Assembly: GCA_037783545.1 (NCBI GenBank)
Contig: JBBELK010000487.1
Coordinates: 186,001-250,000 of the forward strand
DNA length: 64,000 bases
Direction of reading: 5' to 3'
Source: Henricia sp. BOLD:AAB3569
Taxonomy: Eukaryota; Echinodermata; Asteroidea; Spinulosida; Echinasteridae
Part shown: positions 1 to 48,046 of the stretch, in pieces
Numbering within the stretch: the first letter of the stretch is position 1
How the letters are laid out: every line of letters begins with the position of its first letter
Notes under the pieces: generated by a model
The model's input: the letters and a program-made list of their open reading frames with translations, nothing else
Database searches by the model: none
What the model was told of the DNA's origin: nothing
Made by a program: the position numbers and the translations under genes

Positions 1-3000
1 CTACCCTAGTCTTTCGGAAAGACTGCCTTTTTGCGCGCAATACACGATGTACATAGACTATTCACCATTGGCCGCCAGAGGGCGCACCTGAAATACAGTC
101 GAAAAGTTTTCGAGTTCACGTTGTAAGTGTAGGTACGCCCTCTGGCGGCTAAAATGAACAATGTGGGGATCGCGAACTCTAACAGTAAATTCGGTCTTGC
201 ATCAAGACTAGGTCTACCCCACAAACGAGGTGGGGATTGTCAATTTCCGAGTGACAAATTTCCCACCCCTGGAAAAAATTTAGGTGACAAAATCCCCACC
301 CTGGGGCATAAAAACCAAATCCCCATCCCCTATAGGTGGGGACAACAATTGATAGGTGCATTAGATCATGGAGGAAGGTTTCTTCCTCCATGATTAGATG
401 AAATCAAGCCCCCTGTATTTTTCCACAGGGTCTCAAGCTATGCCCAGCCTATACTCCTTTTCCTCTCTGCCTGCTCGACTGTTTTCGGTCGAAAATAAAG
501 TACATCATCACAAACTGTATGTTCAAGTTTGACAGTAAAGTGTTCGAGTTATAGTCTCAACAACAAACTAATTTGAAATGCTGTTCAACAAAATTCACAA
601 AAACCAGGGCAAAACAAAATCTCAACACATGTCCTATAATGTTTGTTTTACATACCCATTTTTAATACATGTACCCGTAAACACATTGTATATAGTACCA
701 CTTGACCAATAAAGGAAAGAACGTGTCATCCAGGGTATAAACAGAAATTCACAGAATGGAATTTTAATATGATGTTTATGTCCTTGACTGGACATCTCTT
801 AAAATTGAGAACTGTTTGCATCACAAAACAGTCTGAAATGACCTAAGAGATTCTTTGCCTATTCTTGTTTGCAGTTCATCTCTCTCAAATAATGCAATCA
901 TGTTTTCTAAAAAAGCACATCAGTACTAGACGATTAAATAAAAAAGAGATGCCCACATGGAGAGCCAAGAAAGGAAATAACAGACCTTTTGATGTACAAA
1001 TTTCCTATATGACACAATGTTACATTTTTATCAATCCTGTTAATAGCATAGGTCTTGTTTGAGATTTACATTACTGTTTTTTTTATTGGACAACATCATA
1101 ATATTAAAAAAAGAACTATACATGTACAAGTATATGCAACAGAATGACCCCATTACCATCATGGAGGATTATAGGCCTACACATGCTGTTCCTTCTACAA
1201 ATGTGGATTGTTTACATCTAACCTGCAACATACATGTACTAAAGTGATGTTGATATGTCTGATATGGAGAAATTAATGACATCCAATATTCACGTTGTTT
1301 GGTTTGTTTGATTTTGTGCACATTCAATGCACTAAATTCCCTCACATTGCCCTGGTAGTTTGACTATAACAGTCGTGTATAATCACAACTCAGACCTTGA
1401 ATCTATGCAGTGACCACTGGGATTTACTAAATCATTTTTCGCTTTAGCATTGTACATTTTCGTGCCATTTCATTAAAAAAATGATTATCCAAAAATCACA
1501 GCCTTGAACACGCGTAGTTAAAAGAGCAGACGTGATATTGTCAGAGATTAATTACTGCATTCCAATGCACATCAGTGATCTGAAGTCTGTTTACAGAGAA
1601 TAAGCAGTCCCACTTTGCTGCAGCACTTGGTGCAGGCAGGATATTTGCATCCAAGTAAAAAAAAAAAACATTAAATCAGTATTTAAAATTGTCTTGAAAC
1701 AAAAGGTTTTAATCTTGGTTGTACTGGTTTGGTTTACATTTGCTTATTTCAGCAATTATGGATTGCCGACTTGTAGGCCTAGTTATACAAACAGTATATA
1801 AACACATACAAGTACTGAAACAAATCCCAAACTTATGAAAAAAGACATGTAAATGTAGTAATAATACGGTTGATGAAAATCACAATCACTGTGTCGTTGT
1901 TTTACTGCACATGGCATTTTGTAGGCCTACATGTATGATGCATGCAGTTATTTAAAAACTGGGCAGAGGGCACTTAACTTGTTCATAACATGAAAACAAT
2001 TATCGAAATACAGCTATACACCATTAGTAGAAGAGAGGTGTTACTTGGAACAGTGGGTATGTTGAAACATTTATATTTTCTTCCACGGCATTAGTTATTT
2101 TTAAGAAATATTGCATTGTATGCTAATGATGTTCATAGATTCACTTGACTAGTTTTTGAGTACAAAATGAGGTTAACGAGATGTCAAATTGTAGTCACTG
2201 TTTTTTAAACAGGCCAGCGGGTTTAGTTGGAACAAAATGAGGGGGCTAGTTGGAACATGTTTCATTGACCACATGAAACAGGCCACCTGTTTACAGTTGC
2301 CAGTCCCGAAGGTGGCAACTATATATACACGTTTCACTGCATTATAAGTGAACAGTTGTCAATGACTCCCTGTACCCCAAAGAGTTGATTAGCACCCCAA
2401 TTTACAGCTTAAGTGTATGCCTTGCTAATTAGGGTGATCACAGAAGTTATAGTAGTTTTTAAATGACAACATACCATGTTTCAACTTACCCCATAGGTGG
2501 GGCTAGTCGGAACAGCTGAAATGGTCATGTTCAAGTTGGATTATCCGAGAAACCAGCGAGTCTTAACATTTTATAAGCTCCATTAATTTGTAGCCCAAAT
2601 AATTATGTATGCTTAAAGTGGTACGGTTGTTTTTTCTTTAACCCCAACACTCCTCAATCCTTCAAAATCAATATGATTTTACATTAACCCTAGGAATTTA
2701 GGGTTACTAAATTATGTTAGTGTTTTATAGTCGATTTTGTGAAAAATGTTCCAACTAACCCCACCCTCCCCTACTTTGTACATGGGTATTATGATTTTGG
2801 TTTTGGGGGATAAACATTAATCATGCACACAAAAGGTTGTTTTTACTGGACCATGAATGGACATTTAATTGCATTTTATTCACTATTTCCCAGTACATGT
2901 ATTTACAAAAACAGCAATGTTATGACAAGTTTACTGATCGAGTAAAGGCAGATGAAAGCAGTGAGTTGAATAATAAATATCATCATAAGAGCAAGAAAAA

Positions 3001-3565
3001 CAACAAATTAAGACTTTGATTGTTTGATTTGGATGTCATCTCTTCTTTATATTAGGAGAATTTTCCTTTGTTTGTTTATACTCAGATCGGGGTAGAGGGG
3101 GGAGGGGGGGTGACCTCACTTCCTCTCTGGATTCTAGTTCCCCTATTTGGCATACCGTACGCTTCAGTCATTCTAGATCTGAGGCTCAGTTCACAACGCG
3201 GAAGCTGGACCGGGAAACTCGCCCGTAAAACGGCTCACATGTTCGGCAAATTTTATGTATGTTTACCGAACAGTTGACCTGTTGACCTTACGTGTTGTGA
3301 ACTCTTTGCTGATGCATACATTATTTTACAATCTTCCGTCAATCACCAACCACGACAATGAATAATGCAAACATCATCTGATATTAGCATAGTCTGGTCC
3401 CGCCCTCAAATGCCAAGATCGTAAAGACGTTAACTGGGTCCAAATCCACACGTACGACAGTCCAAATACAAGTACTTGAAGTGCGCCCTCTATTGGGCAT
3501 GCAATTAAGTGTGCTCACATGAACGTGTGACAAACACAGACAGTTAACGTCTTTAGTAAAGACTA
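1..3565 (+). mobile_element. 4412-bp palindrome-ended element, copy 1 (5' truncated by window)
   Basis: This is the right-hand 3565 bases of the same element seen whole at 7703-12114. Position n here matches n+8549 in copy 2, with no difference in the stretches I compared. It ends in the palindrome GTCTTTAGTAAAGAC followed by TA, and is followed at once by CTTTCAGCG, the same 9 bases that flank copy 2. No long ORF is present (longest about 80 codons), so no transposase is visible. The left end lies outside the window, so its left target duplication cannot be checked. Confidence 0.85.
222..362. repeat. CCCCACC-rich inverted module within the 4.4-kb element
   Basis: The stretch contains several facing copies of GTGGGGA/TCCCCAC with the phrase GTGACAAA...TTTGTCAC, and ends near CAATTGATAG. 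A diverged relative stands alone at 24345-24470, so this is a separate repeat family that the large element has captured. It also occurs at 8771-8911 and, inverted, at about 18190-18340. Confidence 0.55.
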
Positions 3566-3605
3566 CTTTCAGCGCTGAGAGGTTGTCCAAAAGTGTGGCT
3601 TATGT

Positions 3606-3678
3606 GCCTCGTTGGCGCAGTCGGCAGCGCGTCAGTCTCATAATCTGAAGGTCGTGAGTTCGAGCCTCACACGGGGCA
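3606..3678 (+). tRNA. tRNA-Met (CAT, elongator), unit 1
   Basis: This 73-nt cloverleaf has acceptor GCCTCGT paired with ACGGGGC (one G-T pair) and discriminator A. The anticodon loop CTCATAA carries CAT, and the T arm has GTTCGAG. It lacks the features of an initiator and matches the conserved animal elongator Met tRNA. Internal A and B boxes serve as the promoter, and a TTTT follows about 14 bases downstream. Confidence 0.95.
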
Positions 3679-3821
3679 GTCTCTGTCGTTTTGTAATGCT
3701 TCCCTTTTATATTATTGTTGTCTGCGTGAGGCTCAGGGTTTGGTAATGTCCTCATTTTAAACTGGAATGGCTCGTTTGGTTCCAACCATGCTGCTTGCGA
3801 CCTGAAAGACAGCTTCACGTG

Positions 3822-3894
3822 GACCACGTGGCCTAATGGATAAGGCGTCCGACTTCGGATCGGAAGATTGAGGGTTCGAATCCCTTCGTGGTTG
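3822..3894 (+). tRNA. tRNA-Arg (TCG), unit 1
   Basis: This 73-nt cloverleaf has acceptor GACCACG paired with CGTGGTT and discriminator G. The anticodon stem/loop CCGA-CTTCGGA-TCGG carries TCG, which reads CGA codons, and the B box is GGTTCGAATCC. A TTTT terminator lies a few bases downstream in GCTATTTTGG. The gene is 143 bp downstream of tRNA-Met on the same strand. Confidence 0.95.
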
Positions 3895-4121
3895 TGCTAT
3901 TTTGGCACGCTGACTCTGTCTTCTGTCTTCTAAAGTCGATCCGAGATGACCGCCGTCTCCAGAAGGGCTTACTTCATGTATCCATGTTATGAACAATGTT
4001 ATAGCAGGCCTTTGTGTTTGTGCAGTCAAGTTTGTCTCACAGGACAGTCTTCTTCAGCTAGCTCATGACAGACGATTGCAACTTTCAGCGCTGAGAGGTT
4101 GTCCAAAAGTGTGGCTTATGT

Positions 4122-4194
4122 GCCTCGTTGGCGCAGTCGGCAGCGCGTCAGTCTCATAATCTGAAGGTCGTGAGTTCGAGCCTCACACGGGGCA
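4122..4194 (+). tRNA. tRNA-Met (CAT), unit 2
   Basis: Exact 516-bp repeat of the gene at 3606. Confidence 0.94.
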
Positions 4195-4337
4195 GTCTCT
4201 GTCGTTTTGTAATGCTTCCCTTTTATATTATTGTTGTCTGCGTGAGGCTCAGGGTTTGGTAATGTCCTCATTTTAAACTGGAATGGCTCGTTTGGTTCCA
4301 ACCATGCTGCTTGCGACCTGAAAGACAGCTTCACGTG

Positions 4338-4410
4338 GACCACGTGGCCTAATGGATAAGGCGTCCGACTTCGGATCGGAAGATTGAGGGTTCGAATCCC
4401 TTCGTGGTTG
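4338..4410 (+). tRNA. tRNA-Arg (TCG), unit 2
   Basis: Exact 516-bp repeat of the gene at 3822. Confidence 0.94.
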
Positions 4411-4637
4411 TGCTATTTTGGCACGCTGACTCTGTCTTCTGTCTTCTAAAGTCGATCCGAGATGACCGCCGTCTCCAGAAGGGCTTACTTCATGTATCCA
4501 TGTTATGAACAATGTTATAGCAGGCCTTTGTGTTTGTGCAGTCAAGTTTGTCTCACAGGACAGTCTTCTTCAGCTAGCTCATGACAGACGATTGCAACTT
4601 TCAGCGCTGAGAGGTTGTCCAAAAGTGTGGCTTATGT

Positions 4638-4710
4638 GCCTCGTTGGCGCAGTCGGCAGCGCGTCAGTCTCATAATCTGAAGGTCGTGAGTTCGAGCCTC
4701 ACACGGGGCA
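4638..4710 (+). tRNA. tRNA-Met (CAT), unit 3
   Basis: Repeat of the gene at 3606, third unit. Confidence 0.94.
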
Positions 4711-4853
4711 GTCTCTGTCGTTTTGTAATGCTTCCCTTTTATATTATTGTTGTCTGCGTGAGGCTCAGGGTTTGGTAATGTCCTCATTTTAAACTGGAAT
4801 GGCTCGTTTGGTTCCAACCATGCTGCTTGCGACCTGAAAGACAGCTTCACGTG

Positions 4854-4926
4854 GACCACGTGGCCTAATGGATAAGGCGTCCGACTTCGGATCGGAAGAT
4901 TGAGGGTTCGAATCCCTTCGTGGTTG
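4854..4926 (+). tRNA. tRNA-Arg (TCG), unit 3
   Basis: Repeat of the gene at 3822, third unit. Confidence 0.94.
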
Positions 4927-5153
4927 TGCTATTTTGGCACGCTGACTCTGTCTTCTGTCTTCTAAAGTCGATCCGAGATGACCGCCGTCTCCAGAAGGGC
5001 TTACTTCATGTATCCATGTTATGAACAATGTTATAGCAGGCCTTTGTGTTTGTGCAGTCAAGTTTGTCTCACAGGACAGTCTTCTTCAGCTAGCTCATGA
5101 CAGACGATTGCAACTTTCAGCGCTGAGAGGTTGTCCAAAAGTGTGGCTTATGT

Positions 5154-5226
5154 GCCTCGTTGGCGCAGTCGGCAGCGCGTCAGTCTCATAATCTGAAGGT
5201 CGTGAGTTCGAGCCTCACACGGGGCA
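5154..5226 (+). tRNA. tRNA-Met (CAT), unit 4
   Basis: Repeat of the gene at 3606, fourth unit. Confidence 0.94.
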
Positions 5227-5369
5227 GTCTCTGTCGTTTTGTAATGCTTCCCTTTTATATTATTGTTGTCTGCGTGAGGCTCAGGGTTTGGTAATGTCCT
5301 CATTTTAAACTGGAATGGCTCGTTTGGTTCCAACCATGCTGCTTGCGACCTGAAAGACAGCTTCACGTG

Positions 5370-5442
5370 GACCACGTGGCCTAATGGATAAGGCGTCCGA
5401 CTTCGGATCGGAAGATTGAGGGTTCGAATCCCTTCGTGGTTG
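5370..5442 (+). tRNA. tRNA-Arg (TCG), unit 4
   Basis: Repeat of the gene at 3822, fourth unit. Confidence 0.94.
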
Positions 5443-5669
5443 TGCTATTTTGGCACGCTGACTCTGTCTTCTGTCTTCTAAAGTCGATCCGAGATGACCG
5501 CCGTCTCCAGAAGGGCTTACTTCATGTATCCATGTTATGAACAATGTTATAGCAGGCCTTTGTGTTTGTGCAGTCAAGTTTGTCTCACAGGACAGTCTTC
5601 TTCAGCTAGCTCATGACAGACGATTGCAACTTTCAGCGCTGAGAGGTTGTCCAAAAGTGTGGCTTATGT

Positions 5670-5742
5670 GCCTCGTTGGCGCAGTCGGCAGCGCGTCAGT
5701 CTCATAATCTGAAGGTCGTGAGTTCGAGCCTCACACGGGGCA
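5670..5742 (+). tRNA. tRNA-Met (CAT), unit 5
   Basis: Repeat of the gene at 3606, fifth unit. Confidence 0.94.
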
Positions 5743-5885
5743 GTCTCTGTCGTTTTGTAATGCTTCCCTTTTATATTATTGTTGTCTGCGTGAGGCTCAG
5801 GGTTTGGTAATGTCCTCATTTTAAACTGGAATGGCTCGTTTGGTTCCAACCATGCTGCTTGCGACCTGAAAGACAGCTTCACGTG

Positions 5886-5958
5886 GACCACGTGGCCTAA
5901 TGGATAAGGCGTCCGACTTCGGATCGGAAGATTGAGGGTTCGAATCCCTTCGTGGTTG
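5886..5958 (+). tRNA. tRNA-Arg (TCG), unit 5
   Basis: Repeat of the gene at 3822, fifth unit. Confidence 0.94.
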
Positions 5959-6185
5959 TGCTATTTTGGCACGCTGACTCTGTCTTCTGTCTTCTAAAGT
6001 CGATCCGAGATGACCGCCGTCTCCAGAAGGGCTTACTTCATGTATCCATGTTATGAACAATGTTATAGCAGGCCTTTGTGTTTGTGCAGTCAAGTTTGTC
6101 TCACAGGACAGTCTTCTTCAGCTAGCTCATGACAGACGATTGCAACTTTCAGCGCTGAGAGGTTGTCCAAAAGTGTGGCTTATGT

Positions 6186-6258
6186 GCCTCGTTGGCGCAG
6201 TCGGCAGCGCGTCAGTCTCATAATCTGAAGGTCGTGAGTTCGAGCCTCACACGGGGCA
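6186..6258 (+). tRNA. tRNA-Met (CAT), unit 6
   Basis: Repeat of the gene at 3606, sixth unit. Confidence 0.94.
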
Positions 6259-6401
6259 GTCTCTGTCGTTTTGTAATGCTTCCCTTTTATATTATTGTTG
6301 TCTGCGTGAGGCTCAGGGTTTGGTAATGTCCTCATTTTAAACTGGAATGGCTCGTTTGGTTCCAACCATGCTGCTTGCGACCTGAAAGACAGCTTCACGT
6401 G

Positions 6402-6474
6402 GACCACGTGGCCTAATGGATAAGGCGTCCGACTTCGGATCGGAAGATTGAGGGTTCGAATCCCTTCGTGGTTG
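6402..6474 (+). tRNA. tRNA-Arg (TCG), unit 6
   Basis: Repeat of the gene at 3822, sixth unit. Confidence 0.94.
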
Positions 6475-6701
6475 TGCTATTTTGGCACGCTGACTCTGTC
6501 TTCTGTCTTCTAAAGTCGATCCGAGATGACCGCCGTCTCCAGAAGGGCTTACTTCATGTATCCATGTTATGAACAATGTTATAGCAGGCCTTTGTGTTTG
6601 TGCAGTCAAGTTTGTCTCACAGGACAGTCTTCTTCAGCTAGCTCATGACAGACGATTGCAACTTTCAGCGCTGAGAGGTTGTCCAAAAGTGTGGCTTATG
6701 T

Positions 6702-6774
6702 GCCTCGTTGGCGCAGTCGGCAGCGCGTCAGTCTCATAATCTGAAGGTCGTGAGTTCGAGCCTCACACGGGGCA
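6702..6774 (+). tRNA. tRNA-Met (CAT), unit 7
   Basis: Repeat of the gene at 3606, seventh unit. Confidence 0.94.
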
Positions 6775-6917
6775 GTCTCTGTCGTTTTGTAATGCTTCCC
6801 TTTTATATTATTGTTGTCTGCGTGAGGCTCAGGGTTTGGTAATGTCCTCATTTTAAACTGGAATGGCTCGTTTGGTTCCAACCATGCTGCTTGCGACCTG
6901 AAAGACAGCTTCACGTG

Positions 6918-6990
6918 GACCACGTGGCCTAATGGATAAGGCGTCCGACTTCGGATCGGAAGATTGAGGGTTCGAATCCCTTCGTGGTTG
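6918..6990 (+). tRNA. tRNA-Arg (TCG), unit 7
   Basis: Repeat of the gene at 3822, seventh unit. Confidence 0.94.
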
Positions 6991-7217
6991 TGCTATTTTG
7001 GCACGCTGACTCTGTCTTCTGTCTTCTAAAGTCGATCCGAGATGACCGCCGTCTCCAGAAGGGCTTACTTCATGTATCCATGTTATGAACAATGTTATAG
7101 CAGGCCTTTGTGTTTGTGCAGTCAAGTTTGTCTCACAGGACAGTCTTCTTCAGCTAGCTCATGACAGACGATTGCAACTTTCAGCGCTGAGAGGTTGTCC
7201 AAAAGTGTGGCTTATGT

Positions 7218-7290
7218 GCCTCGTTGGCGCAGTCGGCAGCGCGTCAGTCTCATAATCTGAAGGTCGTGAGTTCGAGCCTCACACGGGGCA
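7218..7290 (+). tRNA. tRNA-Met (CAT), unit 8
   Basis: Repeat of the gene at 3606. It is the last unit before element copy 2. Confidence 0.94.
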
Positions 7291-7433
7291 GTCTCTGTCG
7301 TTTTGTAATGCTTCCCTTTTATATTATTGTTGTCTGCGTGAGGCTCAGGGTTTGGTAATGTCCTCATTTTAAACTGGAATGGCTCGTTTGGTTCCAACCA
7401 TGCTGCTTGCGACCTGAAAGACAGCTTCACGTG

Positions 7434-7506
7434 GACCACGTGGCCTAATGGATAAGGCGTCCGACTTCGGATCGGAAGATTGAGGGTTCGAATCCCTTCG
7501 TGGTTG
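7434..7506 (+). tRNA. tRNA-Arg (TCG), unit 8
   Basis: Repeat of the gene at 3822. Its downstream spacer is cut by the element at 7703. Confidence 0.94.
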
Positions 7507-7693
7507 TGCTATTTTGGCACGCTGACTCTGTCTTCTGTCTTCTAAAGTCGATCCGAGATGACCGCCGTCTCCAGAAGGGCTTACTTCATGTATCCATGTT
7601 ATGAACAATGTTATAGCAGGCCTTTGTGTTTGTGCAGTCAAGTTTGTCTCACAGGACAGTCTTCTTCAGCTAGCTCATGACAGACGATTGCAA

Positions 7694-7702
7694 CTTTCAG
7701 CG
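7694..7702. repeat. Target-site duplication, left of element copy 2
   Basis: CTTTCAGCG here is repeated at 12115-12123 on the other side of the element. It is also the natural sequence at this point of every 516-bp tRNA unit. Confidence 0.88.
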
Positions 7703-10700
7703 TAGTCTTGGCTCCAAGACCTTCGTGTTAGTTTTTGTTGTTGCTATACAGAATTCCCACAGCGCGCGATGAACAGTGCGCGAAACTATTGAGGGCGTTT
7801 TTTCATACATTTTAATCGATTATTTGGTGTATTCGTAGCGGTAGTACGTATTCGTTGCACTGGTATCGATACCAGTGGGGCATACGATACTGGACCTTCT
7901 CGAAGGTCTTGGCAATCTTGGCAGCAATTCTTAACTTTTTCTTTATTTCTCCCTTGGAAATCCAAGGGAGCCAATCAGTGATTAGGTTGGGACCATAGCG
8001 TGAATTATTCATTAGGCAAACGTAAAACAGGTTTATGTGTGTGTAAAATGCCTGCGGGATGTCTGTTGGGTTGATCGAGGGAAAACTCGGCATCGGGAAA
8101 ATTTGCGGACAAGCGAGCGCTGCGCCCGGGCCAGGCAACACCGCACTGCCTGCAGGCGCAGGCAGCTATCGGTACGGTCGGCCTTCCGGCTAACGGCCGC
8201 CGGTATTTCACCTGGGGATTTCAGTACCCTGCTTGTTACTCGTCTTGAATTAAATTCTATAGATAATCGATCTCATCAAACCAAATAAAAAGGTTATAAA
8301 AACAGACAAATAAGAGGGGAAATGTTAAGAGGTTACCGGTACCCCGATGTTTAAAAAAAGGATAATTTTGGAAGGGAAAACCAATAATTTTCTTATACAG
8401 GTCTATCAATTGTCCAACCCCCTCCCCCACCCCGGGCTACCCTAACCAAGGTTAACTCGGCTCGAATTTTATCATGTGGTAATTAATCTGTGGTAACAGA
8501 TTACCACATCGGATACAATTCGAGCCGAGCTAGGTAACCTTGGCTAGGTCTACCCTAGTCTTTCGGAAAGACTGCCTTTTTGCGCGCAATACACGATGTA
8601 CATAGACTATTCACCATTGGCCGCCAGAGGGCGCACCTGAAATACAGTCGAAAAGTTTTCGAGTTCACGTTGTAAGTGTAGGTACGCCCTCTGGCGGCTA
8701 AAATGAACAATGTGGGGATCGCGAACTCTAACAGTAAATTCGGTCTTGCATCAAGACTAGGTCTACCCCACAAACGAGGTGGGGATTGTCAATTTCCGAG
8801 TGACAAATTTCCCACCCCTGGAAAAAATTTAGGTGACAAAATCCCCACCCTGGGGCATAAAAACCAAATCCCCATCCCCTATAGGTGGGGACAACAATTG
8901 ATAGGTGCATTAGATCATGGAGGAAGGTTTCTTCCTCCATGATTAGATGAAATCAAGCCCCCTGTATTTTTCCACAGGGTCTCAAGCTATGCCCAGCCTA
9001 TACTCCTTTTCCTCTCTGCCTGCTCGACTGTTTTCGGTCGAAAATAAAGTACATCATCACAAACTGTATGTTCAAGTTTGACAGTAAAGTGTTCGAGTTA
9101 TAGTCTCAACAACAAACTAATTTGAAATGCTGTTCAACAAAATTCACAAAAACCAGGGCAAAACAAAATCTCAACACATGTCCTATAATGTTTGTTTTAC
9201 ATACCCATTTTTAATACATGTACCCGTAAACACATTGTATATAGTACCACTTGACCAATAAAGGAAAGAACGTGTCATCCAGGGTATAAACAGAAATTCA
9301 CAGAATGGAATTTTAATATGATGTTTATGTCCTTGACTGGACATCTCTTAAAATTGAGAACTGTTTGCATCACAAAACAGTCTGAAATGACCTAAGAGAT
9401 TCTTTGCCTATTCTTGTTTGCAGTTCATCTCTCTCAAATAATGCAATCATGTTTTCTAAAAAAGCACATCAGTACTAGACGATTAAATAAAAAAGAGATG
9501 CCCACATGGAGAGCCAAGAAAGGAAATAACAGACCTTTTGATGTACAAATTTCCTATATGACACAATGTTACATTTTTATCAATCCTGTTAATAGCATAG
9601 GTCTTGTTTGAGATTTACATTACTGTTTTTTTTATTGGACAACATCATAATATTAAAAAAAGAACTATACATGTACAAGTATATGCAACAGAATGACCCC
9701 ATTACCATCATGGAGGATTATAGGCCTACACATGCTGTTCCTTCTACAAATGTGGATTGTTTACATCTAACCTGCAACATACATGTACTAAAGTGATGTT
9801 GATATGTCTGATATGGAGAAATTAATGACATCCAATATTCACGTTGTTTGGTTTGTTTGATTTTGTGCACATTCAATGCACTAAATTCCCTCACATTGCC
9901 CTGGTAGTTTGACTATAACAGTCGTGTATAATCACAACTCAGACCTTGAATCTATGCAGTGACCACTGGGATTTACTAAATCATTTTTCGCTTTAGCATT
10001 GTACATTTTCGTGCCATTTCATTAAAAAAATGATTATCCAAAAATCACAGCCTTGAACACGCGTAGTTAAAAGAGCAGACGTGATATTGTCAGAGATTAA
10101 TTACTGCATTCCAATGCACATCAGTGATCTGAAGTCTGTTTACAGAGAATAAGCAGTCCCACTTTGCTGCAGCACTTGGTGCAGGCAGGATATTTGCATC
10201 CAAGTAAAAAAAAAAAACATTAAATCAGTATTTAAAATTGTCTTGAAACAAAAGGTTTTAATCTTGGTTGTACTGGTTTGGTTTACATTTGCTTATTTCA
10301 GCAATTATGGATTGCCGACTTGTAGGCCTAGTTATACAAACAGTATATAAACACATACAAGTACTGAAACAAATCCCAAACTTATGAAAAAAGACATGTA
10401 AATGTAGTAATAATACGGTTGATGAAAATCACAATCACTGTGTCGTTGTTTTACTGCACATGGCATTTTGTAGGCCTACATGTATGATGCATGCAGTTAT
10501 TTAAAAACTGGGCAGAGGGCACTTAACTTGTTCATAACATGAAAACAATTATCGAAATACAGCTATACACCATTAGTAGAAGAGAGGTGTTACTTGGAAC
10601 AGTGGGTATGTTGAAACATTTATATTTTCTTCCACGGCATTAGTTATTTTTAAGAAATATTGCATTGTATGCTAATGATGTTCATAGATTCACTTGACTA

Positions 10701-12114
10701 GTTTTTGAGTACAAAATGAGGTTAACGAGATGTCAAATTGTAGTCACTGTTTTTTAAACAGGCCAGCGGGTTTAGTTGGAACAAAATGAGGGGGCTAGTT
10801 GGAACATGTTTCATTGACCACATGAAACAGGCCACCTGTTTACAGTTGCCAGTCCCGAAGGTGGCAACTATATATACACGTTTCACTGCATTATAAGTGA
10901 ACAGTTGTCAATGACTCCCTGTACCCCAAAGAGTTGATTAGCACCCCAATTTACAGCTTAAGTGTATGCCTTGCTAATTAGGGTGATCACAGAAGTTATA
11001 GTAGTTTTTAAATGACAACATACCATGTTTCAACTTACCCCATAGGTGGGGCTAGTCGGAACAGCTGAAATGGTCATGTTCAAGTTGGATTATCCGAGAA
11101 ACCAGCGAGTCTTAACATTTTATAAGCTCCATTAATTTGTAGCCCAAATAATTATGTATGCTTAAAGTGGTACGGTTGTTTTTTCTTTAACCCCAACACT
11201 CCTCAATCCTTCAAAATCAATATGATTTTACATTAACCCTAGGAATTTAGGGTTACTAAATTATGTTAGTGTTTTATAGTCGATTTTGTGAAAAATGTTC
11301 CAACTAACCCCACCCTCCCCTACTTTGTACATGGGTATTATGATTTTGGTTTTGGGGGATAAACATTAATCATGCACACAAAAGGTTGTTTTTACTGGAC
11401 CATGAATGGACATTTAATTGCATTTTATTCACTATTTCCCAGTACATGTATTTACAAAAACAGCAATGTTATGACAAGTTTACTGATCGAGTAAAGGCAG
11501 ATGAAAGCAGTGAGTTGAATAATAAATATCATCATAAGAGCAAGAAAAACAACAAATTAAGACTTTGATTGTTTGATTTGGATGTCATCTCTTCTTTATA
11601 TTAGGAGAATTTTCCTTTGTTTGTTTATACTCAGATCGGGGTAGAGGGGGGAGGGGGGGTGACCTCACTTCCTCTCTGGATTCTAGTTCCCCTATTTGGC
11701 ATACCGTACGCTTCAGTCATTCTAGATCTGAGGCTCAGTTCACAACGCGGAAGCTGGACCGGGAAACTCGCCCGTAAAACGGCTCACATGTTCGGCAAAT
11801 TTTATGTATGTTTACCGAACAGTTGACCTGTTGACCTTACGTGTTGTGAACTCTTTGCTGATGCATACATTATTTTACAATCTTCCGTCAATCACCAACC
11901 ACGACAATGAATAATGCAAACATCATCTGATATTAGCATAGTCTGGTCCCGCCCTCAAATGCCAAGATCGTAAAGACGTTAACTGGGTCCAAATCCACAC
12001 GTACGACAGTCCAAATACAAGTACTTGAAGTGCGCCCTCTATTGGGCATGCAATTAAGTGTGCTCACATGAACGTGTGACAAACACAGACAGTTAACGTC
12101 TTTAGTAAAGACTA
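7703..12114 (+). mobile_element. 4412-bp non-autonomous DNA transposon, copy 2 (complete)
   Basis: The element starts TAGTCTTGGCTCCAAGAC and ends GTCTTTAGTAAAGACTA. Each end is a short perfect hairpin, and the ends share the terminal inverted TAGTCTT. It is flanked on both sides by CTTTCAGCG (7694-7702 and 12115-12123), which occurs once per 516-bp tRNA unit, so the element interrupts the tRNA array about 40 bp upstream of a tRNA-Met gene. The longest ORF is 109 codons and resembles nothing I know. A 9-bp duplication is known for MuDR-type elements, including the Rehavkus group, but no family signature is visible, so that assignment is only inference. Confidence 0.9.
8411..8550. repeat. Nested hairpin inside the 4.4-kb element
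   Basis: Inside the element, AACCAAGGTTAACTCGGCTCG is answered by CGAGCCGAGCTAGGTAACCTTGG about 60 bases on, around a central TGTGGTAAT...ATTACCACA stem. The same hairpin is present in copy 3 at about 18550-18660. It looks like an older small foldback element carried along with the large one. Confidence 0.6.
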
Positions 12115-12154
12115 CTTTCAGCGCTGAGAGGTTGTCCAAAAGTGTGGCTTATGT

Positions 12155-12227
12155 GCCTCGTTGGCGCAGTCGGCAGCGCGTCAGTCTCATAATCTGAAGG
12201 TCGTGAGTTCGAGCCTCACACGGGGCA
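12155..12227 (+). tRNA. tRNA-Met (CAT), second block unit 1
   Basis: Same gene as at 3606. Its 5' end lies only 40 bp from the right end of element copy 2. Confidence 0.94.
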
Positions 12228-12370
12228 GTCTCTGTCGTTTTGTAATGCTTCCCTTTTATATTATTGTTGTCTGCGTGAGGCTCAGGGTTTGGTAATGTCC
12301 TCATTTTAAACTGGAATGGCTCGTTTGGTTCCAACCATGCTGCTTGCGACCTGAAAGACAGCTTCACGTG

Positions 12371-12443
12371 GACCACGTGGCCTAATGGATAAGGCGTCCG
12401 ACTTCGGATCGGAAGATTGAGGGTTCGAATCCCTTCGTGGTTG
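12371..12443 (+). tRNA. tRNA-Arg (TCG), second block unit 1
   Basis: Same gene as at 3822, intact. Confidence 0.94.
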
Positions 12444-12670
12444 TGCTATTTTGGCACGCTGACTCTGTCTTCTGTCTTCTAAAGTCGATCCGAGATGACC
12501 GCCGTCTCCAGAAGGGCTTACTTCATGTATCCATGTTATGAACAATGTTATAGCAGGCCTTTGTGTTTGTGCAGTCAAGTTTGTCTCACAGGACAGTCTT
12601 CTTCAGCTAGCTCATGACAGACGATTGCAACTTTCAGCGCTGAGAGGTTGTCCAAAAGTGTGGCTTATGT

Positions 12671-12743
12671 GCCTCGTTGGCGCAGTCGGCAGCGCGTCAG
12701 TCTCATAATCTGAAGGTCGTGAGTTCGAGCCTCACACGGGGCA
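12671..12743 (+). tRNA. tRNA-Met (CAT), second block unit 2
   Basis: Same gene as at 3606, intact. Confidence 0.94.
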
Positions 12744-12886
12744 GTCTCTGTCGTTTTGTAATGCTTCCCTTTTATATTATTGTTGTCTGCGTGAGGCTCA
12801 GGGTTTGGTAATGTCCTCATTTTAAACTGGAATGGCTCGTTTGGTTCCAACCATGCTGCTTGCGACCTGAAAGACAGCTTCACGTG

Positions 12887-12959
12887 GACCACGTGGCCTA
12901 ATGGATAAGGCGTCCGACTTCGGATCGGAAGATTGAGGGTTCGAATCCCTTCGTGGTTG
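12887..12959 (+). tRNA. tRNA-Arg (TCG), second block unit 2
   Basis: Same gene as at 3822, intact. Confidence 0.94.
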
Positions 12960-13186
12960 TGCTATTTTGGCACGCTGACTCTGTCTTCTGTCTTCTAAAG
13001 TCGATCCGAGATGACCGCCGTCTCCAGAAGGGCTTACTTCATGTATCCATGTTATGAACAATGTTATAGCAGGCCTTTGTGTTTGTGCAGTCAAGTTTGT
13101 CTCACAGGACAGTCTTCTTCAGCTAGCTCATGACAGACGATTGCAACTTTCAGCGCTGAGAGGTTGTCCAAAAGTGTGGCTTATGT

Positions 13187-13259
13187 GCCTCGTTGGCGCA
13201 GTCGGCAGCGCGTCAGTCTCATAATCTGAAGGTCGTGAGTTCGAGCCTCACACGGGGCA
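13187..13259 (+). tRNA. tRNA-Met (CAT), second block unit 3
   Basis: Same gene as at 3606, intact. Confidence 0.94.
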
Positions 13260-13402
13260 GTCTCTGTCGTTTTGTAATGCTTCCCTTTTATATTATTGTT
13301 GTCTGCGTGAGGCTCAGGGTTTGGTAATGTCCTCATTTTAAACTGGAATGGCTCGTTTGGTTCCAACCATGCTGCTTGCGACCTGAAAGACAGCTTCACG
13401 TG

Positions 13403-13475
13403 GACCACGTGGCCTAATGGATAAGGCGTCCGACTTCGGATCGGAAGATTGAGGGTTCGAATCCCTTCGTGGTTG
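13403..13475 (+). tRNA. tRNA-Arg (TCG), second block unit 3
   Basis: Same gene as at 3822. It is the last intact Arg gene in the array. Confidence 0.94.
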
Positions 13476-13702
13476 TGCTATTTTGGCACGCTGACTCTGT
13501 CTTCTGTCTTCTAAAGTCGATCCGAGATGACCGCCGTCTCCAGAAGGGCTTACTTCATGTATCCATGTTATGAACAATGTTATAGCAGGCCTTTGTGTTT
13601 GTGCAGTCAAGTTTGTCTCACAGGACAGTCTTCTTCAGCTAGCTCATGACAGACGATTGCAACTTTCAGCGCTGAGAGGTTGTCCAAAAGTGTGGCTTAT
13701 GT

Positions 13703-13775
13703 GCCTCGTTGGCGCAGTCGGCAGCGCGTCAGTCTCATAATCTGAAGGTCGTGAGTTCGAGCCTCACACGGGGCA
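13703..13775 (+). tRNA. tRNA-Met (CAT), second block unit 4
   Basis: Same gene as at 3606. It lies in the terminal, otherwise damaged unit. Confidence 0.93.
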
Positions 13776-13918
13776 GTCTCTGTCGTTTTGTAATGCTTCC
13801 CTTTTATATTATTGTTGTCTGCGTGAGGCTCAGGGTTTGGTAATGTCCTCATTTTAAACTGGAATGGCTCGTTTGGTTCCAACCATGCTGCTTGCGACCT
13901 GAAAGACAGCTTCACGTG

Positions 13919-13979
13919 GACCACGTGGCCTAATGGATAAGGCGTCGGAAGATTGAGGGTTCGAATCCCTTCGTGGTTG
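13919..13979 (+). pseudogene. Broken tRNA-Arg, anticodon arm deleted
   Basis: This copy is 61 nt instead of 73. Twelve bases (CGACTTCGGATC) are missing between GGCGTC and GGAAG, which removes the anticodon loop and half of its stem. The acceptor and T arms remain, so both internal promoter boxes may survive, but the RNA could not act as a tRNA. The deletion lies between short CGG repeats, consistent with slippage. Confidence 0.93.
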
Positions 13980-13989
13980 TGCTATTTTG

Positions 13990-14981
13990 GTATTGGTTGG
14001 CATGCCCGCTCGCTCCGCAACAACACCGTAACCATAGAGACAGCTTATTATCGCCATATTGTATTCTACGTGTTTGAAAACCCGCAGAACTCAAAAGCGT
14101 GATCCAATTCCGTCCTTCACGCGTGAGGGACGGAAATCAAGAGACAAATGCCTTTCCTTAGTCAACAACAAATGAAAACTAAAGTGAACCTGTTTAATTG
14201 TTTACCTTCTACTGATGTTAATACACACACCCAGTTTATCACATGTTGAAATTGACTTTACAGTTTTATGCGGAGGTTGTTTTTATGCGTGAGGTACAGA
14301 TAATCAATTAAATTGACCAAAAAAAGCAATTTTTTAACATGCATTTTCAACTATTTCCTGAAAATGTGATGGCACAGTGTGCCTAGTCAAGATTTTTCTG
14401 TTAATTTTTGTAATATGATTGTAAAATATGGACATTTCTTTACAGATCGAGGTATTATTTTGATTAATTTAAGAAATTTTGAAATCTTCATCCAGTGTTT
14501 AACAATTTTTGGATCATATCACGCTCTCCACTTTCCACTAAAACAGACAAATATTTAATTTAGGCATACTTTCGTTTTATTCTGCCGCCTCCAGAAGGGC
14601 TTACTGTATCTGTGTTATGAACAATGTTATAGCATGCCTTTTTTTTGTGTTTGCAAAAAAGTCACATACGCTACTGGGCAAAATAGGGCCACTTTTACGA
14701 GCTAGATGGTCCAAAATGTTTACAGTTGGAAGAAAAAATACCCCACATTACGAGGATGGCCAATATCTATATTAGACCACACTCGTTCAGCTCACAACTC
14801 TCTCTAATATAGAATAATTTGAGGGCATACAAAATATTCATGAGCTCGACGCACGGATCTCTGCCTATTTACTGTGCACCCTGGCCCTAAAGATGATCTC
14901 AGAATAGTCAGAATCTTTTGGTCTGGAAACCAGACTACGTTGCTGGTTCCACATTGAACTGATTTTTAGGTCCACATACAT
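13990..14981. other. Array-edge spacer with a diverged unit remnant
   Basis: No gene is seen. At about 14580-14655 the sequence again resembles the 516-bp unit spacer (CTCCAGAAGGGCTTACT and GTTATGAACAATGTTATAGCA), but with clear changes. The terminal unit was therefore split by about 590 bp of other DNA and has decayed, unlike the uniform units inside the array. Confidence 0.6.
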
Positions 14982-14990
14982 ATTCCACAT
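14982..14990. repeat. Target-site duplication, left of element copy 3
   Basis: ATTCCACAT here is repeated exactly at 19403-19411, directly next to the two ends of the inverted element. Confidence 0.9.
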
Positions 14991-17900
14991 TAGTCTTTAC
15001 TAAAGACGTTAACTGTCTGTGTTTGTCACACGTTCATGTGAGCACACTTAATTGCATGCCCAATAGAGGGCGCACTTCAAGTACTTGTATTTGGACTGTC
15101 GTACGTGTGGATTTGGACCCAGTTAACGTCTTTACGATCTTGGCATTTGAGGGCGGGACCAGACTATGCTAATATCAGATGATGTTTGCATTATTCATTG
15201 TCGTGGTTGGTGATTGACGGAAGATTGTAAAATAATGTATGCATCAGCAAAGAGTTCACAACACGTAAGGTCAACAGGTCAACTGTTCGGTAAACATACA
15301 TAAAATTTGCCGAACATGTGAGCCGTTTTACGGGCGAGTTTCCCGGTCCAGCTTCCGCGTTGTGAACTGAGCCTCAGATCTAGAATGACTGAAGCGTACG
15401 GTATGCCAAATAGGGGAACTAGAATCCAGAGAGGAAGTGAGGTCACCCCCCCTCCCCCCTCTACCCCGATCTGAGTATAAACAAACAAAGGAAAATTCTC
15501 CTAATATAAAGAAGAGATGACATCCAAATCAAACAATCAAAGTCTTAATTTGTTGTTTTTCTTGCTCTTATGATGATATTTATTATTCAACTCACTGCTT
15601 TCATCTGCCTTTACTCGATCAGTAAACTTGTCATAACATTGCTGTTTTTGTAAATACATGTACTGGGAAATAGTGAATAAAATGCAATTAAATGTCCATT
15701 CATGGTCCAGTAAAAACAACCTTTTGTGTGCATGATTAATGTTTATCCCCCAAAACCAAAATCATAATACCCATGTACAAAGTAGGGGAGGGTGGGGTTA
15801 GTTGGAACATTTTTCACAAAATCGACTATAAAACACTAACATAATTTAGTAACCCTAAATTCCTAGGGTTAATGTAAAATCATATTGATTTTGAAGGATT
15901 GAGGAGTGTTGGGGTTAAAGAAAAAACAACCGTACCACTTTAAGCATACATAATTATTTGGGCTACAAATTAATGGAGCTTATAAAATGTTAAGACTCGC
16001 TGGTTTCTCGGATAATCCAACTTGAACATGACCATTTCAGCTGTTCCGACTAGCCCCACCTATGGGGTAAGTTGAAACATGGTATGTTGTCATTTAAAAA
16101 CTACTATAACTTCTGTGATCACCCTAATTAGCAAGGCATACACTTAAGCTGTAAATTGGGGTGCTAATCAACTCTTTGGGGTACAGGGAGTCATTGACAA
16201 CTGTTCACTTATAATGCAGTGAAACGTGTATATATAGTTGCCACCTTCGGGACTGGCAACTGTAAACAGGTGGCCTGTTTCATGTGGTCAATGAAACATG
16301 TTCCAACTAGCCCCCTCATTTTGTTCCAACTAAACCCGCTGGCCTGTTTAAAAAACAGTGACTACAATTTGACATCTCGTTAACCTCATTTTGTACTCAA
16401 AAACTAGTCAAGTGAATCTATGAACATCATTAGCATACAATGCAATATTTCTTAAAAATAACTAATGCCGTGGAAGAAAATATAAATGTTTCAACATACC
16501 CACTGTTCCAAGTAACACCTCTCTTCTACTAATGGTGTATAGCTGTATTTCGATAATTGTTTTCATGTTATGAACAAGTTAAGTGCCCTCTGCCCAGTTT
16601 TTAAATAACTGCATGCATCATACATGTAGGCCTACAAAATGCCATGTGCAGTAAAACAACGACACAGTGATTGTGATTTTCATCAACCGTATTATTACTA
16701 CATTTACATGTCTTTTTTCATAAGTTTGGGATTTGTTTCAGTACTTGTATGTGTTTATATACTGTTTGTATAACTAGGCCTACAAGTCGGCAATCCATAA
16801 TTGCTGAAATAAGCAAATGTAAACCAAACCAGTACAACCAAGATTAAAACCTTTTGTTTCAAGACAATTTTAAATACTGATTTAATGTTTTTTTTTTTTA
16901 CTTGGATGCAAATATCCTGCCTGCACCAAGTGCTGCAGCAAAGTGGGACTGCTTATTCTCTGTAAACAGACTTCAGATCACTGATGTGCATTGGAATGCA
17001 GTAATTAATCTCTGACAATATCACGTCTGCTCTTTTAACTACGCGTGTTCAAGGCTGTGATTTTTGGATAATCATTTTTTTAATGAAATGGCACGAAAAT
17101 GTACAATGCTAAAGCGAAAAATGATTTAGTAAATCCCAGTGGTCACTGCATAGATTCAAGGTCTGAGTTGTGATTATACACGACTGTTATAGTCAAACTA
17201 CCAGGGCAATGTGAGGGAATTTAGTGCATTGAATGTGCACAAAATCAAACAAACCAAACAACGTGAATATTGGATGTCATTAATTTCTCCATATCAGACA
17301 TATCAACATCACTTTAGTACATGTATGTTGCAGGTTAGATGTAAACAATCCACATTTGTAGAAGGAACAGCATGTGTAGGCCTATAATCCTCCATGATGG
17401 TAATGGGGTCATTCTGTTGCATATACTTGTACATGTATAGTTCTTTTTTTAATATTATGATGTTGTCCAATAAAAAAAACAGTAATGTAAATCTCAAACA
17501 AGACCTATGCTATTAACAGGATTGATAAAAATGTAACATTGTGTCATATAGGAAATTTGTACATCAAAAGGTCTGTTATTTCCTTTCTTGGCTCTCCATG
17601 TGGGCATCTCTTTTTTATTTAATCGTCTAGTACTGATGTGCTTTTTTAGAAAACATGATTGCATTATTTGAGAGAGATGAACTGCAAACAAGAATAGGCA
17701 AAGAATCTCTTAGGTCATTTCAGACTGTTTTGTGATGCAAACAGTTCTCAATTTTAAGAGATGTCCAGTCAAGGACATAAACATCATATTAAAATTCCAT
17801 TCTGTGAATTTCTGTTTATACCCTGGATGACACGTTCTTTCCTTTATTGGTCAAGTGGTACTATATACAATGTGTTTACGGGTACATGTATTAAAAATGG

Positions 17901-19402
17901 GTATGTAAAACAAACATTATAGGACATGTGTTGAGATTTTGTTTTGCCCTGGTTTTTGTGAATTTTGTTGAACAGCATTTCAAATTAGTTTGTTGTTGAG
18001 ACTATAACTCGAACACTTTACTGTCAAACTTGAACATACAGTTTGTGATGATGTACTTTATTTTCGACCGAAAACAGTCGAGCAGGCAGAGAGGAAAAGG
18101 AGTATAGGCTGGGCATAGCTTGAGACCCTGTGGAAAAATACAGGGGGCTTGATTTCATCTAATCATGGAGGAAGAAACCTTCCTCCATGATCTAATGCAC
18201 CTATCAATTGTTGTCCCCACCTATAGGGGATGGGGATTTGGTTTTTATGCCCCAGGGTGGGGATTTTGTCACCTAAATTTTTTCCAGGGGTGGGAAATTT
18301 GTCACTCGGAAATTGACAATCCCCACCTCGTTTGTGGGGTAGACCTAGTCTTGATGCAAGACCGAATTTACTGTTAGAGTTCGCGATCCCCACATTGTTC
18401 ATTTTAGCCGCCAGAGGGCGTACCTACACTTACAACGTGAACTCGAAAACTTTTCGACTGTATTTCAGGTGCGCCCTCTGGCGGCCAATGGTGAATAGTC
18501 TATGTACATCGTGTATTGCGCGCAAAAAGGCAGTCTTTCCGAAAGACTAGGGTAGACCTAGCCAAGGTTACCTAGCTCGGCTCGAATTGTATCCGATGTG
18601 GTAATCTGTTACCACAGATTAATTACCACATGATAAAATTCGAGCCGAGTTAACCTTGGTTAGGGTAGCCCGGGGTGGGGGAGGGGGTTGGACAATTGAT
18701 AGACCTGTATAAGAAAATTATTGGTTTTCCCTTCCAAAATTATCCTTTTTTTAAACATCGGGGTACCGGTAACCTCTTAACATTTCCCCTCTTATTTGTC
18801 TGTTTTTATAACCTTTTTATTTGGTTTGATGAGATCGATTATCTATAGAATTTAATTCAAGACGAGTAACAAGCAGGGTACTGAAATCCCCAGGTGAAAT
18901 ACCGGCGGCCGTTAGCCGGAAGGCCGACCGTACCGATAGCTGCCTGCGCCTGCAGGCAGTGCGGTGTTGCCTGGCCCGGGCGCAGCGCTCGCTTGTCCGC
19001 AAATTTTCCCGATGCCGAGTTTTCCCTCGATCAACCCAACAGACATCCCGCAGGCATTTTACACACACATAAACCTGTTTTACGTTTGCCTAATGAATAA
19101 TTCACGCTATGGTCCCAACCTAATCACTGATTGGCTCCCTTGGATTTCCAAGGGAGAAATAAAGAAAAAGTTAAGAATTGCTGCCAAGATTGCCAAGACC
19201 TTCGAGAAGGTCCAGTATCGTATGCCCCACTGGTATCGATACCAGTGCAACGAATACGTACTACCGCTACGAATACACCAAATAATCGATTAAAATGTAT
19301 GAAAAAACGCCCTCAATAGTTTCGCGCACTGTTCATCGCGCGCTGTGGGAATTCTGTATAGCAACAACAAAAACTAACACGAAGGTCTTGGAGCCAAGAC
19401 TA
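14991..19402 (-). mobile_element. 4412-bp non-autonomous DNA transposon, copy 3 (inverted, complete)
   Basis: This is the reverse complement of 7703-12114 and has exactly the same length. It is flanked by ATTCCACAT at 14982-14990 and 19403-19411, a 9-bp duplication different from that of copy 2. Different duplications around near-identical copies show that it moved as a unit. Unlike copies 1 and 2 it carries no tRNA units. Together with copy 2 it forms a large inverted repeat with 4.4-kb arms and a spacer of about 2.9 kb. Confidence 0.92.
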
Positions 19403-19411
19403 ATTCCACAT

Positions 19412-20148: not shown

Positions 20149-20543
20149 CCAACAGCCTGGTTGCTTTATGCCATTCTCTCTACGGTGAACATGCTATTGA
20201 TTCTGTCCTTCACACCTGCCACATGCACCCGGTCACATTACATAGCAACAAAGTTTAGTCTGCTCATATGGATACTCGTGTGTGCATGTGAAAGGTAGCG
20301 AAACAGTACATCAGATGCTATTCATGTGAAACATGCAAAAGGCTAATTGTTCTTAGCAGAATAAGGTAACCCTTAGCATGCTATTGGCAACTTGGGTCGC
20401 AATGTAGTGCATGCAAAAGGATATGAATGGCAGGAGGCTAAGCAGCGCTATGACCATGGGCCATGACACAAGCACATTTCAAACAGACACAATTGAGACA
20501 AAAATGTAATCTGAAGCAAAACGTTTTAATAAATATATTTCAT
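20149..20543. other. Spacer, nothing recognised
   Basis: I see no ORF, tRNA-like sequence or clear inverted repeat in this stretch. Confidence 0.4.
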
Positions 20544-20753
20544 ATTGAAAGATGAATTTAGAAACACGAGAAAATTGCAGTGCCCCGACTGGGATTCGAA
20601 CCCATGTCCTTGGCTTACATGGCCAATTGCTCTACCAACTGAGCTATCTGGGGATCCCGCCAGAGCGCCGCAACAATCTCGTGCCAAGGACCTGGGTTCG
20701 AATCCCAGTCGGGGCACTGCAATTTTCTCGTGTTTCTAAATTCATCTTTCAAT
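20544..20753. mobile_element. Palindromic element built from a tRNA-like sequence
   Basis: The outer arms of about 68 bp (from ATTGAAAGATGAATTTAG to its mirror ending at 20753) are almost perfectly complementary. On the minus strand, left arm plus centre read as a degenerate tRNA with D-arm TAGCTCAGTTGGTAGAGCA, anticodon stem/loop TTGGC-CATGTAA-GCCAA (TGT, Thr-like, but without U33) and T arm GGGTTCGAATCCC. The plus-strand right arm carries only the 3' half of the same tRNA. The acceptor stem pairs poorly, so this is a tRNA-derived repeat and not a working gene. Confidence 0.75.
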
Positions 20754-21113
20754 TATCAAACCTACCATAAATATATCCCTTCAATATTTCATATTGCACA
20801 ACGTTTTAGGTACATGTACTATACATTTCAAAGTTAAAGTTGTTTGTAAAGCTCTTTGAAAATGTGCCGTCTGTACACAAAACAGATTTAAACTTGCAAA
20901 AAATAAACTTTAGTATAAATGTCCTCAGTTTGCCAAAGTTATAATTATTAGCTTTCAAATAAACACACAAAAAACAGAAAAACCAACGGGAAATAATATA
21001 TCCAAAAGGTGTACACTATGAAACTTTCTGCAAACTTTGATATTTGACTTACTTTAAGAAACTGCAATGTTTGATTCAAATCATATTTTCAATGTGAAAA
21101 CATTTATTAGTGG

Positions 21114-24344: not shown

Positions 24345-24470
24345 GTGTTTTTTGTCACCTAAATTTTTTCTCAGGGGTGCGGATTTTGTGGCACGAAAAG
24401 TGACAATCCCCACCTCTTAGGTGGGGTAGCCCGGGGAGGGGCGAACAATTGATAGGCGCAATATTTCGAT
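24345..24470. repeat. Solo relative of a module in the 4.4-kb element
   Basis: TTTTGTCACCTAAATTTTTTC, GTGACAATCCCCACCTC and GGTGGGGTAGCCCGGGG match phrases found within the large element (222-362 and about 8411-8450). The module therefore has a life of its own. Confidence 0.6.
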
Positions 24471-25256: not shown

Positions 25257-25496
25257 GCATCAGGCTTTTTCATAGATATTGTTTTTAATAAGCATTGAAA
25301 AGCCAAACTCTGCTTTTAATAGTGATGCAACTATAGCCATCTCCATACTCACACTTAAGCAAAGCACAACTTGCCTACTACAGTAAGCACGCCTTTTAAG
25401 CTAATGCTTAAGCAGCCCTATAAAATTGGGCTCATACAGGTTGGCGATATGTAGTGAAATAGGAATGTAGTACATGTAAATATTATAAGCAACTAA

Positions 25497-47646: not shown

Positions 47647-48026
47647 GATTCAGTAAAAACTTAGTGACAATTACCCCGTTCTTAATTACTAAGAAATGGC
47701 TTCGTTCAACGATGATTGGACGATGATTCGACGAAGAGATTTCCTGATGTGAACGCATGCCTCTTCATTCGACAATGATTAGAATCGCTTCAATCGATGA
47801 AGGAAATAGCTTCATTCGACGTTAAGTGATATGAATGCATATGCCGGCTCCACGGCGCCCTATGCTGGATACGCCACTGTTCAACTCTATTAGGGTAGAT
47901 TGAATTTGAATGCTGAGATAATTGCTCAGTTTCAGATCTGGCCAGACCTGCGTAAAGAATTAGATTTAAGCATTTAATGTGACAGTTATAGTTAAACATT
48001 ACAATAACTTTTTGGTTTCATTTCAG
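47647..48026. other. Region before the ZC2HC1C-like coding exon
   Basis: No ORF is supported. The end of the stretch is intron-like, with a pyrimidine-rich tract and TTTCAG at 48021-48026, so a non-coding first exon should lie upstream, but I cannot place it. Confidence 0.5.
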
Positions 48027-48046
48027 ACCGATGTTGTGTGACCACA

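Follow-up and report, generated by a model that had tools for sequence, protein, structure and literature searches.

Mutator-like elements (MULEs) are described as generating target duplications of 8–11 bp, with inverted repeats of 14–500 bp in a survey in which some groups had none (PMC6446971) and of 13–1193 bp in another report, according to which most arthropod MULEs also carry conserved G/C bases within their first three base pairs (PMC13359780). Muta1, an active Mutator-like element of Aedes aegypti, combines 8–9-bp duplications and a terminal palindromic motif with 145-bp inverted repeats, 12-bp subterminal tandem repeats, and a 504-amino-acid (aa) transposase, and has many non-autonomous derivatives as well as identical copies (PMC5225508). 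The Tm1 Mutator/Foldback elements of Meloidogyne show 9-bp duplications, members similar to miniature inverted-repeat transposable elements (MITEs) alongside longer non-coding ones, and asymmetric outer motifs of 7 bp, with repeats that mostly consist of arrays of ~14-bp tandem repeats (PMC3169594). Rehavkus elements likewise have a 9-bp duplication; their inverted repeats measure 26–400 bp, the 3′ one being preceded by a minisatellite (PMC6446971). Here, we compare these systems with an element of 4412 bp that harbours a miniature of 204 bp, both located in a stretch of 64,000 bp from Henricia sp. (contig JBBELK010000487.1, positions 186,001 to 250,000; hereafter the window, whose own numbering is used throughout). 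With a probability of roughly 75%, we interpret the two as a non-autonomous cut-and-paste DNA transposon family. It looks like a real and recently moved family, unusual in detail, and on present evidence not a new kind of biology.

The 4412-bp element occurs in two complete copies, copy 2 (7703–12114, forward strand) and copy 3 (14991–19402, reverse strand, i.e., inverted), and one partial copy, copy 1 (1–3565, forward strand), which is cut by the start of the window. Copy 2 and the reverse complement of copy 3 match at 4412 of 4412 bases, and copy 1 corresponds to element positions 848–4412 with 100% identity over 3565 bp. Both complete copies are bounded by exact 9-bp target duplications of different sequence, CTTTCAGCG for copy 2 (7694–7702 and 12115–12123) and ATTCCACAT for copy 3 (14982–14990 and 19403–19411). 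The original prediction, made from the sequence alone, of full copies equal in length, free of differences where compared, and differing in their flanking duplications is therefore exact. A simple inversion between copies 2 and 3 was considered and rejected, because each copy keeps matching duplications, while an inversion would have swapped the flanks. The complete identity of the two copies suggests that movement was recent; the word "recent" is used for the 4412-bp element because of this zero divergence, and gene conversion could give the same result.

Copies 1 and 2 reside in a tRNA array, which comprises 11 full units of 516 bp that are 100% identical and each carry one tRNA-Met(CAT) and one tRNA-Arg(TCG) gene. 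Eight of these units lie between the two copies (3566–7693, forward strand), followed by the duplication at 7694–7702, and three units plus a partial fourth lie to the right of copy 2 (12115–13990, forward strand). Both copies interrupt the unit at the identical point, 40 bp upstream of the tRNA-Met gene, and have the right flank CTTTCAGCG in common. At the 10 uninterrupted unit junctions CTTTCAGCG is present only once, which makes them exact natural empty sites and shows that the element itself starts and ends with TA and that CTTTCAGCG alone was duplicated. Including the insert, the array has a period of 8549 bp, i.e., 8 × 516 + 9 + 4412 bp. The simplest account is that copies 1 and 2 represent one insertion that would subsequently have been amplified together with the array. 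An array that holds the element at repeated, identical positions is also a clear candidate case of a transposon carried along by array amplification. Since copies 1 and 2 share site and duplication, we count two independent large insertions and not three; the predicted partial copy is thus correct in its identity, and copy 1 provides no support for a third independent insertion.

The position of copies 1 and 2 could also be explained by target-specific insertion into tRNA arrays, comparable to Dada elements, which insert at small-RNA gene arrays with strict target choice and produce 6–7-bp duplications inside multicopy RNA genes (PMC3706591). The exact coincidence of both sites would fit such an element, and within the window repeated insertion at this one site is a possible, if less simple, alternative. 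In contrast to Dada, the present family has 9-bp duplications, is inserted in the spacer, and uses varied targets: copy 3 has another duplication and is not part of the run of identical units, and a nested member occupies a third target. With 100% identity among array units and among copies, array amplification explains the shared position without re-insertion, and we consider a Dada-like target choice quite unlikely. The same identity of 11 full units and of the overlapping element copies, in a window that starts inside a copy, could point to false duplications made during assembly. Such an artefact would not create a copy 3 that is inverted and has different flanks and its own duplication, nor would it create an independent empty site for the nested inserts, so that we regard it as very improbable for the family as a whole; the copy number within the tRNA array is open to doubt. 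The last, partial unit of the array contains a 12-bp deletion within its tRNA-Arg gene (Rfam score of 47.9 compared to 68.6). An Rfam scan returned 25 matches at the gathering score, all of them to tRNA and none to other structured RNAs.

The third target is found within the 4412-bp element itself, where a MITE-like relative of 204 bp, absent from the original prediction, is inserted (8556–8759, forward strand; tips TAGTCTTTCGGAAAGAC and TAGTCTTGATGCAAGAC, the latter read from the other end). Further copies of it are present in copy 1 (7–210) and copy 3 (18346–18549). The 204-bp element shares the TAGTCTT palindromic tips with the 4412-bp element and has its own exact 9-bp duplication, GGTCTACCC, at 8547–8555 and 8760–8768. 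Directly to its left lies a second nested insert of 104 bp (8443–8546, forward strand; ends TAACCAAGGTTA and TAGCCAAGGTTA), so that the left GGTCTACCC also forms the right border of the latter. The flanks of the 104-bp insert, GGGCTACCC and GGTCTACCC, agree in 8 of 9 positions and represent a 9-bp duplication with one mismatch; its left tip is a palindrome with a 5-bp stem, and its right tip is not exactly palindromic. With its TA-started tips, the 104-bp insert may be a further relative of the family.

A diverged paralog at 24350–24441 (reverse strand) lacks both nested inserts and hence provides a natural empty site. Aligned to the surroundings of the inserts, with both inserts and the extra duplications left out, it is identical in 79 of 92 aligned positions, 18 of which lie left of the junction, and shows no gap at the junction and one elsewhere. 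With this empty site and the nested 204-bp insertion, the TAGTCTT family shows target duplication in three independent cases (two large, one of 204 bp), and its length is exactly 9 bp in all of them. The prediction of a recently mobile element with 9-bp duplications is consequently borne out by the two independent large insertions, the nested small one, the natural empty sites, and the identical copies. The order of events was probably insertion of the 104-bp insert, insertion of the 204-bp element into its duplication, and finally movement of the composite 4412-bp element. No further relatives of the 204-bp element were detected in 19412–64000, where nhmmer returned a single row with an E-value of 9.2. 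The DNA around the nested inserts (8403–8904) has inverted ends, CTATCAATTGT and ACAATTGATAG, and the paralog at 24350–24441, and may represent a repeat element of greater age. Another part of the 4412-bp element (10586–11311) repeats motifs resembling TAGTTGGAACA in both orientations, perhaps another nested relic.

We asked how readily such features arise by chance. A lone exact 9-bp duplication combined with a 7-bp inverted repeat (spacing 50–6000 bp) is weak evidence, because shuffled windows also yield such cases (19 cases per 100 dinucleotide shuffles, compared to 4 in the window). In a blind scan, 101 left and 99 right candidate tips of the TA-palindrome type were combined, and pairs flanked by a 9-bp duplication (one mismatch allowed) were retained, which gave six rows. 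The two large copies and the nested 204-bp element of each account for four; in the other two, the left tip of the 104-bp insert is joined to the 204-bp element's far end. Against chance, the empty sites carry most weight.

The ends of the family share a terminal inverted repeat, TAGTCTT, of 7 bp, and both ends of the 4412-bp element are perfect small palindromes (GTCTTGG-CT-CCAAGAC and GTCTTTA-G-TAAAGAC), in agreement with the original prediction. The left tip consists of TA and the palindrome GTCTTGGCTCCAAGAC (7703–7720, forward strand), the right tip of TA and the palindrome GTCTTTACTAAAGAC (12098–12114, reverse strand, in inward reading). All four distinct ends of the family start with TAGTCTT and keep the palindrome (stems of 7, 7, 8, and 6), even though the letters between GTCTT and AAGAC vary (GGCTCC, TACTA, TCGGA, and GATGC). 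Seven of eight inner tip pairs are complementary (binomial p = 0.0004), which was the best result among 24 pairings of left and right halves. In this small sample, the pattern of letters points to conservation of the palindrome itself.

A second shared feature is the subterminal motif GAGGGCG, which occurs in equal orientation at all four distinct ends, 69–89 nt inward. In the 4412-bp element it starts 89 nt from the left tip (7791–7797, forward strand) and 76 nt from the right tip (12033–12039, reverse strand), where a second one follows at 159 nt, and in the 204-bp element it starts 72 nt from the left tip (8627–8633, forward strand) and 69 nt from the right tip (8685–8691, reverse strand). 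Elsewhere in the window, 44,589 bp contain six occurrences on both strands. A pattern of GAGGGCG and a tip with five middle letters, which covers three of the four distinct ends (with its six middle letters, the large left tip falls outside), matched nine times in the window, exclusively in family members, with a mean of 0.00 matches in 100 shuffles. In the 204-bp element, the context of GAGGGCG resembles a putative CTCF core. A pattern of the exact tip and AGAGGGCG had no match in viral contigs. Three further GCGCCCTCT (AGAGGGCGC) sites were located outside the element (24804, 29452, and 44962), and CGCCCTCT was counted 12 times in the window, 9 of them within element copies, compared to 0.7 expected from shuffles.

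The ends had further been predicted to be hairpin-capped, for which palindromic is the more fitting term. Folded as single-stranded DNA, end pieces of 45–60 nt gave z-scores of −1.35, −1.46, −0.86, and −2.75, i.e., folding was unexceptional at three of four ends, and the fourth was moderately stable and equalled in 3 of 200 shuffles. Because end folding is mostly unexceptional, we prefer a palindromic protein site on double-stranded DNA over a single-stranded hairpin. Close to the large ends, CGAAGGTCTTGG (7901–7912, forward strand) repeats the left tip's inner arm (7714–7725) in inverted form, and TAAAGACGTTAACTG (11971–11985, forward strand) does so for the right tip's inner side (12090–12104). 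These 12- and 15-bp inverted copies are rare in shuffled ends (1 and 2 of 1000, respectively); however, a 12-bp inverted repeat is present in 34 of 340 window pieces (260 bp, stepped and overlapping), and a nested foldback at the large ends is for this reason only suggestive.

Palindromes at both ends also bring to mind rolling-circle elements of the Helitron2/Helentron type, which have short terminal repeats and hairpins at both ends (PMC3627910, PMC4067079). For Helitron2, two end hairpins with compensatory changes and a 5′ repeat 0–2 bp from the end have been described, and some non-autonomous Helitron2 elements of C. reinhardtii are flanked by duplications of ~7–19 bp (PMC3627910). The ends of these elements are asymmetric, the 3′ repeat lying ~20–60 bp inward and upstream of the 3′ stem-loop, they depend on a rolling-circle enzyme, and the sections consulted do not mention duplications constant at 9 bp (PMC3627910, PMC4067079). 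The ends of the present family are symmetrical with the palindrome right at the tip, and its duplications are exactly 9 bp in three of three independent insertions, which makes a rolling-circle origin highly unlikely. Duplications of constant length (9 bp) together with symmetric ends are what a DDE transposase with 9-bp staggered cuts would be expected to produce.

For the cut-and-paste family, we propose that a transposase encoded elsewhere acts in trans. It would recognize the palindromes at the tips (TA-GTCTTnn..nnAAGAC) in double-stranded DNA, probably as a dimer, and the subterminal GAGGGCG site, 69–89 nt inward, may aid this binding. The transposase would then excise the element and insert it where the two strands of the target have been cut at a distance of 9 bp, and this 9-bp stagger would leave 9-bp duplications of differing sequence. 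The most likely candidate is a Mutator-like transposase, to which we give about even odds. The exact 9-bp duplication in three of three independent insertions falls within the 8–11 bp of MULEs (PMC6446971), and Muta1 sets a MULE precedent for palindromic tips (PMC5225508). Muta1 resembles the family in duplication length, in its palindromic terminal motif, in its non-autonomous derivatives, and in its identical copies. It differs in its long inverted repeats, its subterminal tandem repeats, and its transposase, compared to the 7-bp shared repeat of the 4412-bp element, for which no tandem repeats were reported and no transposase was found. The likeness to Tm1 comprises the 9-bp duplications, the coexistence of MITE-like and longer non-coding members, and the 7-bp outer motifs; the tandem arrays and the asymmetry of those motifs set Tm1 apart. 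The predicted assignment to MuDR/Rehavkus can be kept in part, as 9-bp duplication and palindromic terminal motif both occur in Muta1. Rehavkus itself shares the 9-bp duplication and differs in two features, namely in the length of its inverted repeats, compared to 7 bp in the 4412-bp element, and in its minisatellite, since Tandem Repeats Finder (score ≥ 50, period up to 500) returned no array within 1–19411.

Several observations weigh against the proposed family and its Mutator-like assignment. The 7-bp inverted repeat, which is complemented by partial conservation of tip and subterminal region, is shorter than the range reported for MULEs in either source (14–500 bp, PMC6446971; 13–1193 bp, PMC13359780), although the former also includes groups that lack such repeats, and the tips start with TAG, unlike the conserved G/C bases of most arthropod MULEs (PMC13359780). 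Independent insertions amount to two large ones and one small one, gene conversion could account for copies 2 and 3 being identical, the unexceptional single-strand folding of three of the four ends speaks against a hairpin mechanism, and neither a transposase nor an autonomous copy was found among the window's open reading frames (ORFs) scanned. The claim that the element encodes no transposase is supported: no Pfam transposase was detected among the 41 stop-to-stop ORFs of at least 40 aa that lie wholly inside the 4412-bp element, which had weak, unrelated Pfam matches only (10 families at E-values up to 0.1, the best being Plectin with 0.0039). The 64 ORFs of at least 90 aa in 19403–64000 (10 + 54 scanned) likewise included no Pfam transposase.

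The lack of a transposase in the ORFs scanned, the TA-starting tips, and the 7-bp inverted repeat would also suit a cut-and-paste superfamily other than MULEs, such as Merlin, a hAT-like, Kyakuja-Dileera-Zisupton, or an undescribed one. This is a serious possibility to which we assign somewhat less than even odds, the constant 9 bp and the Muta1 precedent speaking for a MULE. A more novel and, in our view, unlikely reading is an undescribed cut-and-paste lineage whose recognition unit would be a short covarying TA-palindrome right at the tip together with GAGGGCG, a site with likeness to a putative CTCF core, at a nearly constant distance. A host architectural protein may then help to pair the ends, and the 104-bp insert would form a second family built on this plan. 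No published description of this family was recognized by title or abstract opening in a literature search that left most subscription journals outside.

If such tips prove general, TA-palindrome, 9-bp duplication, and GAGGGCG ~70–90 nt inward would form a searchable signature that serves non-autonomous elements without an identified transposase, and they would offer a test of how a transposase reads palindrome geometry in place of fixed letters. In a chordate host, a MULE transposase would be of greater significance, as evidence for MULEs in chordates is described as limited (PMC6446971).

Regarding the remainder of the window, two ORFs in the batch of 10 scanned from 19403–64000 had Pfam matches above the cut-off, namely a 1408-aa ORF (35965–40188, reverse strand) with an MLH-like DNA mismatch repair C-terminal domain and a 638-aa ORF (48008–49921, forward strand) with a C2HC zinc finger; weaker matches in both batches were not to transposases. 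The proximity of the mismatch-repair and C2HC ORFs is reminiscent of an animal gene neighbourhood. A ~600-bp inverted repeat was observed at 25496–26091, with a self-match of 90.8% on the opposite strand. Finally, a tRNA-Thr(TGT) gene (20580–20654, reverse strand) overlaps one arm of a short inverted repeat (20538–20614 and 20683–20760).

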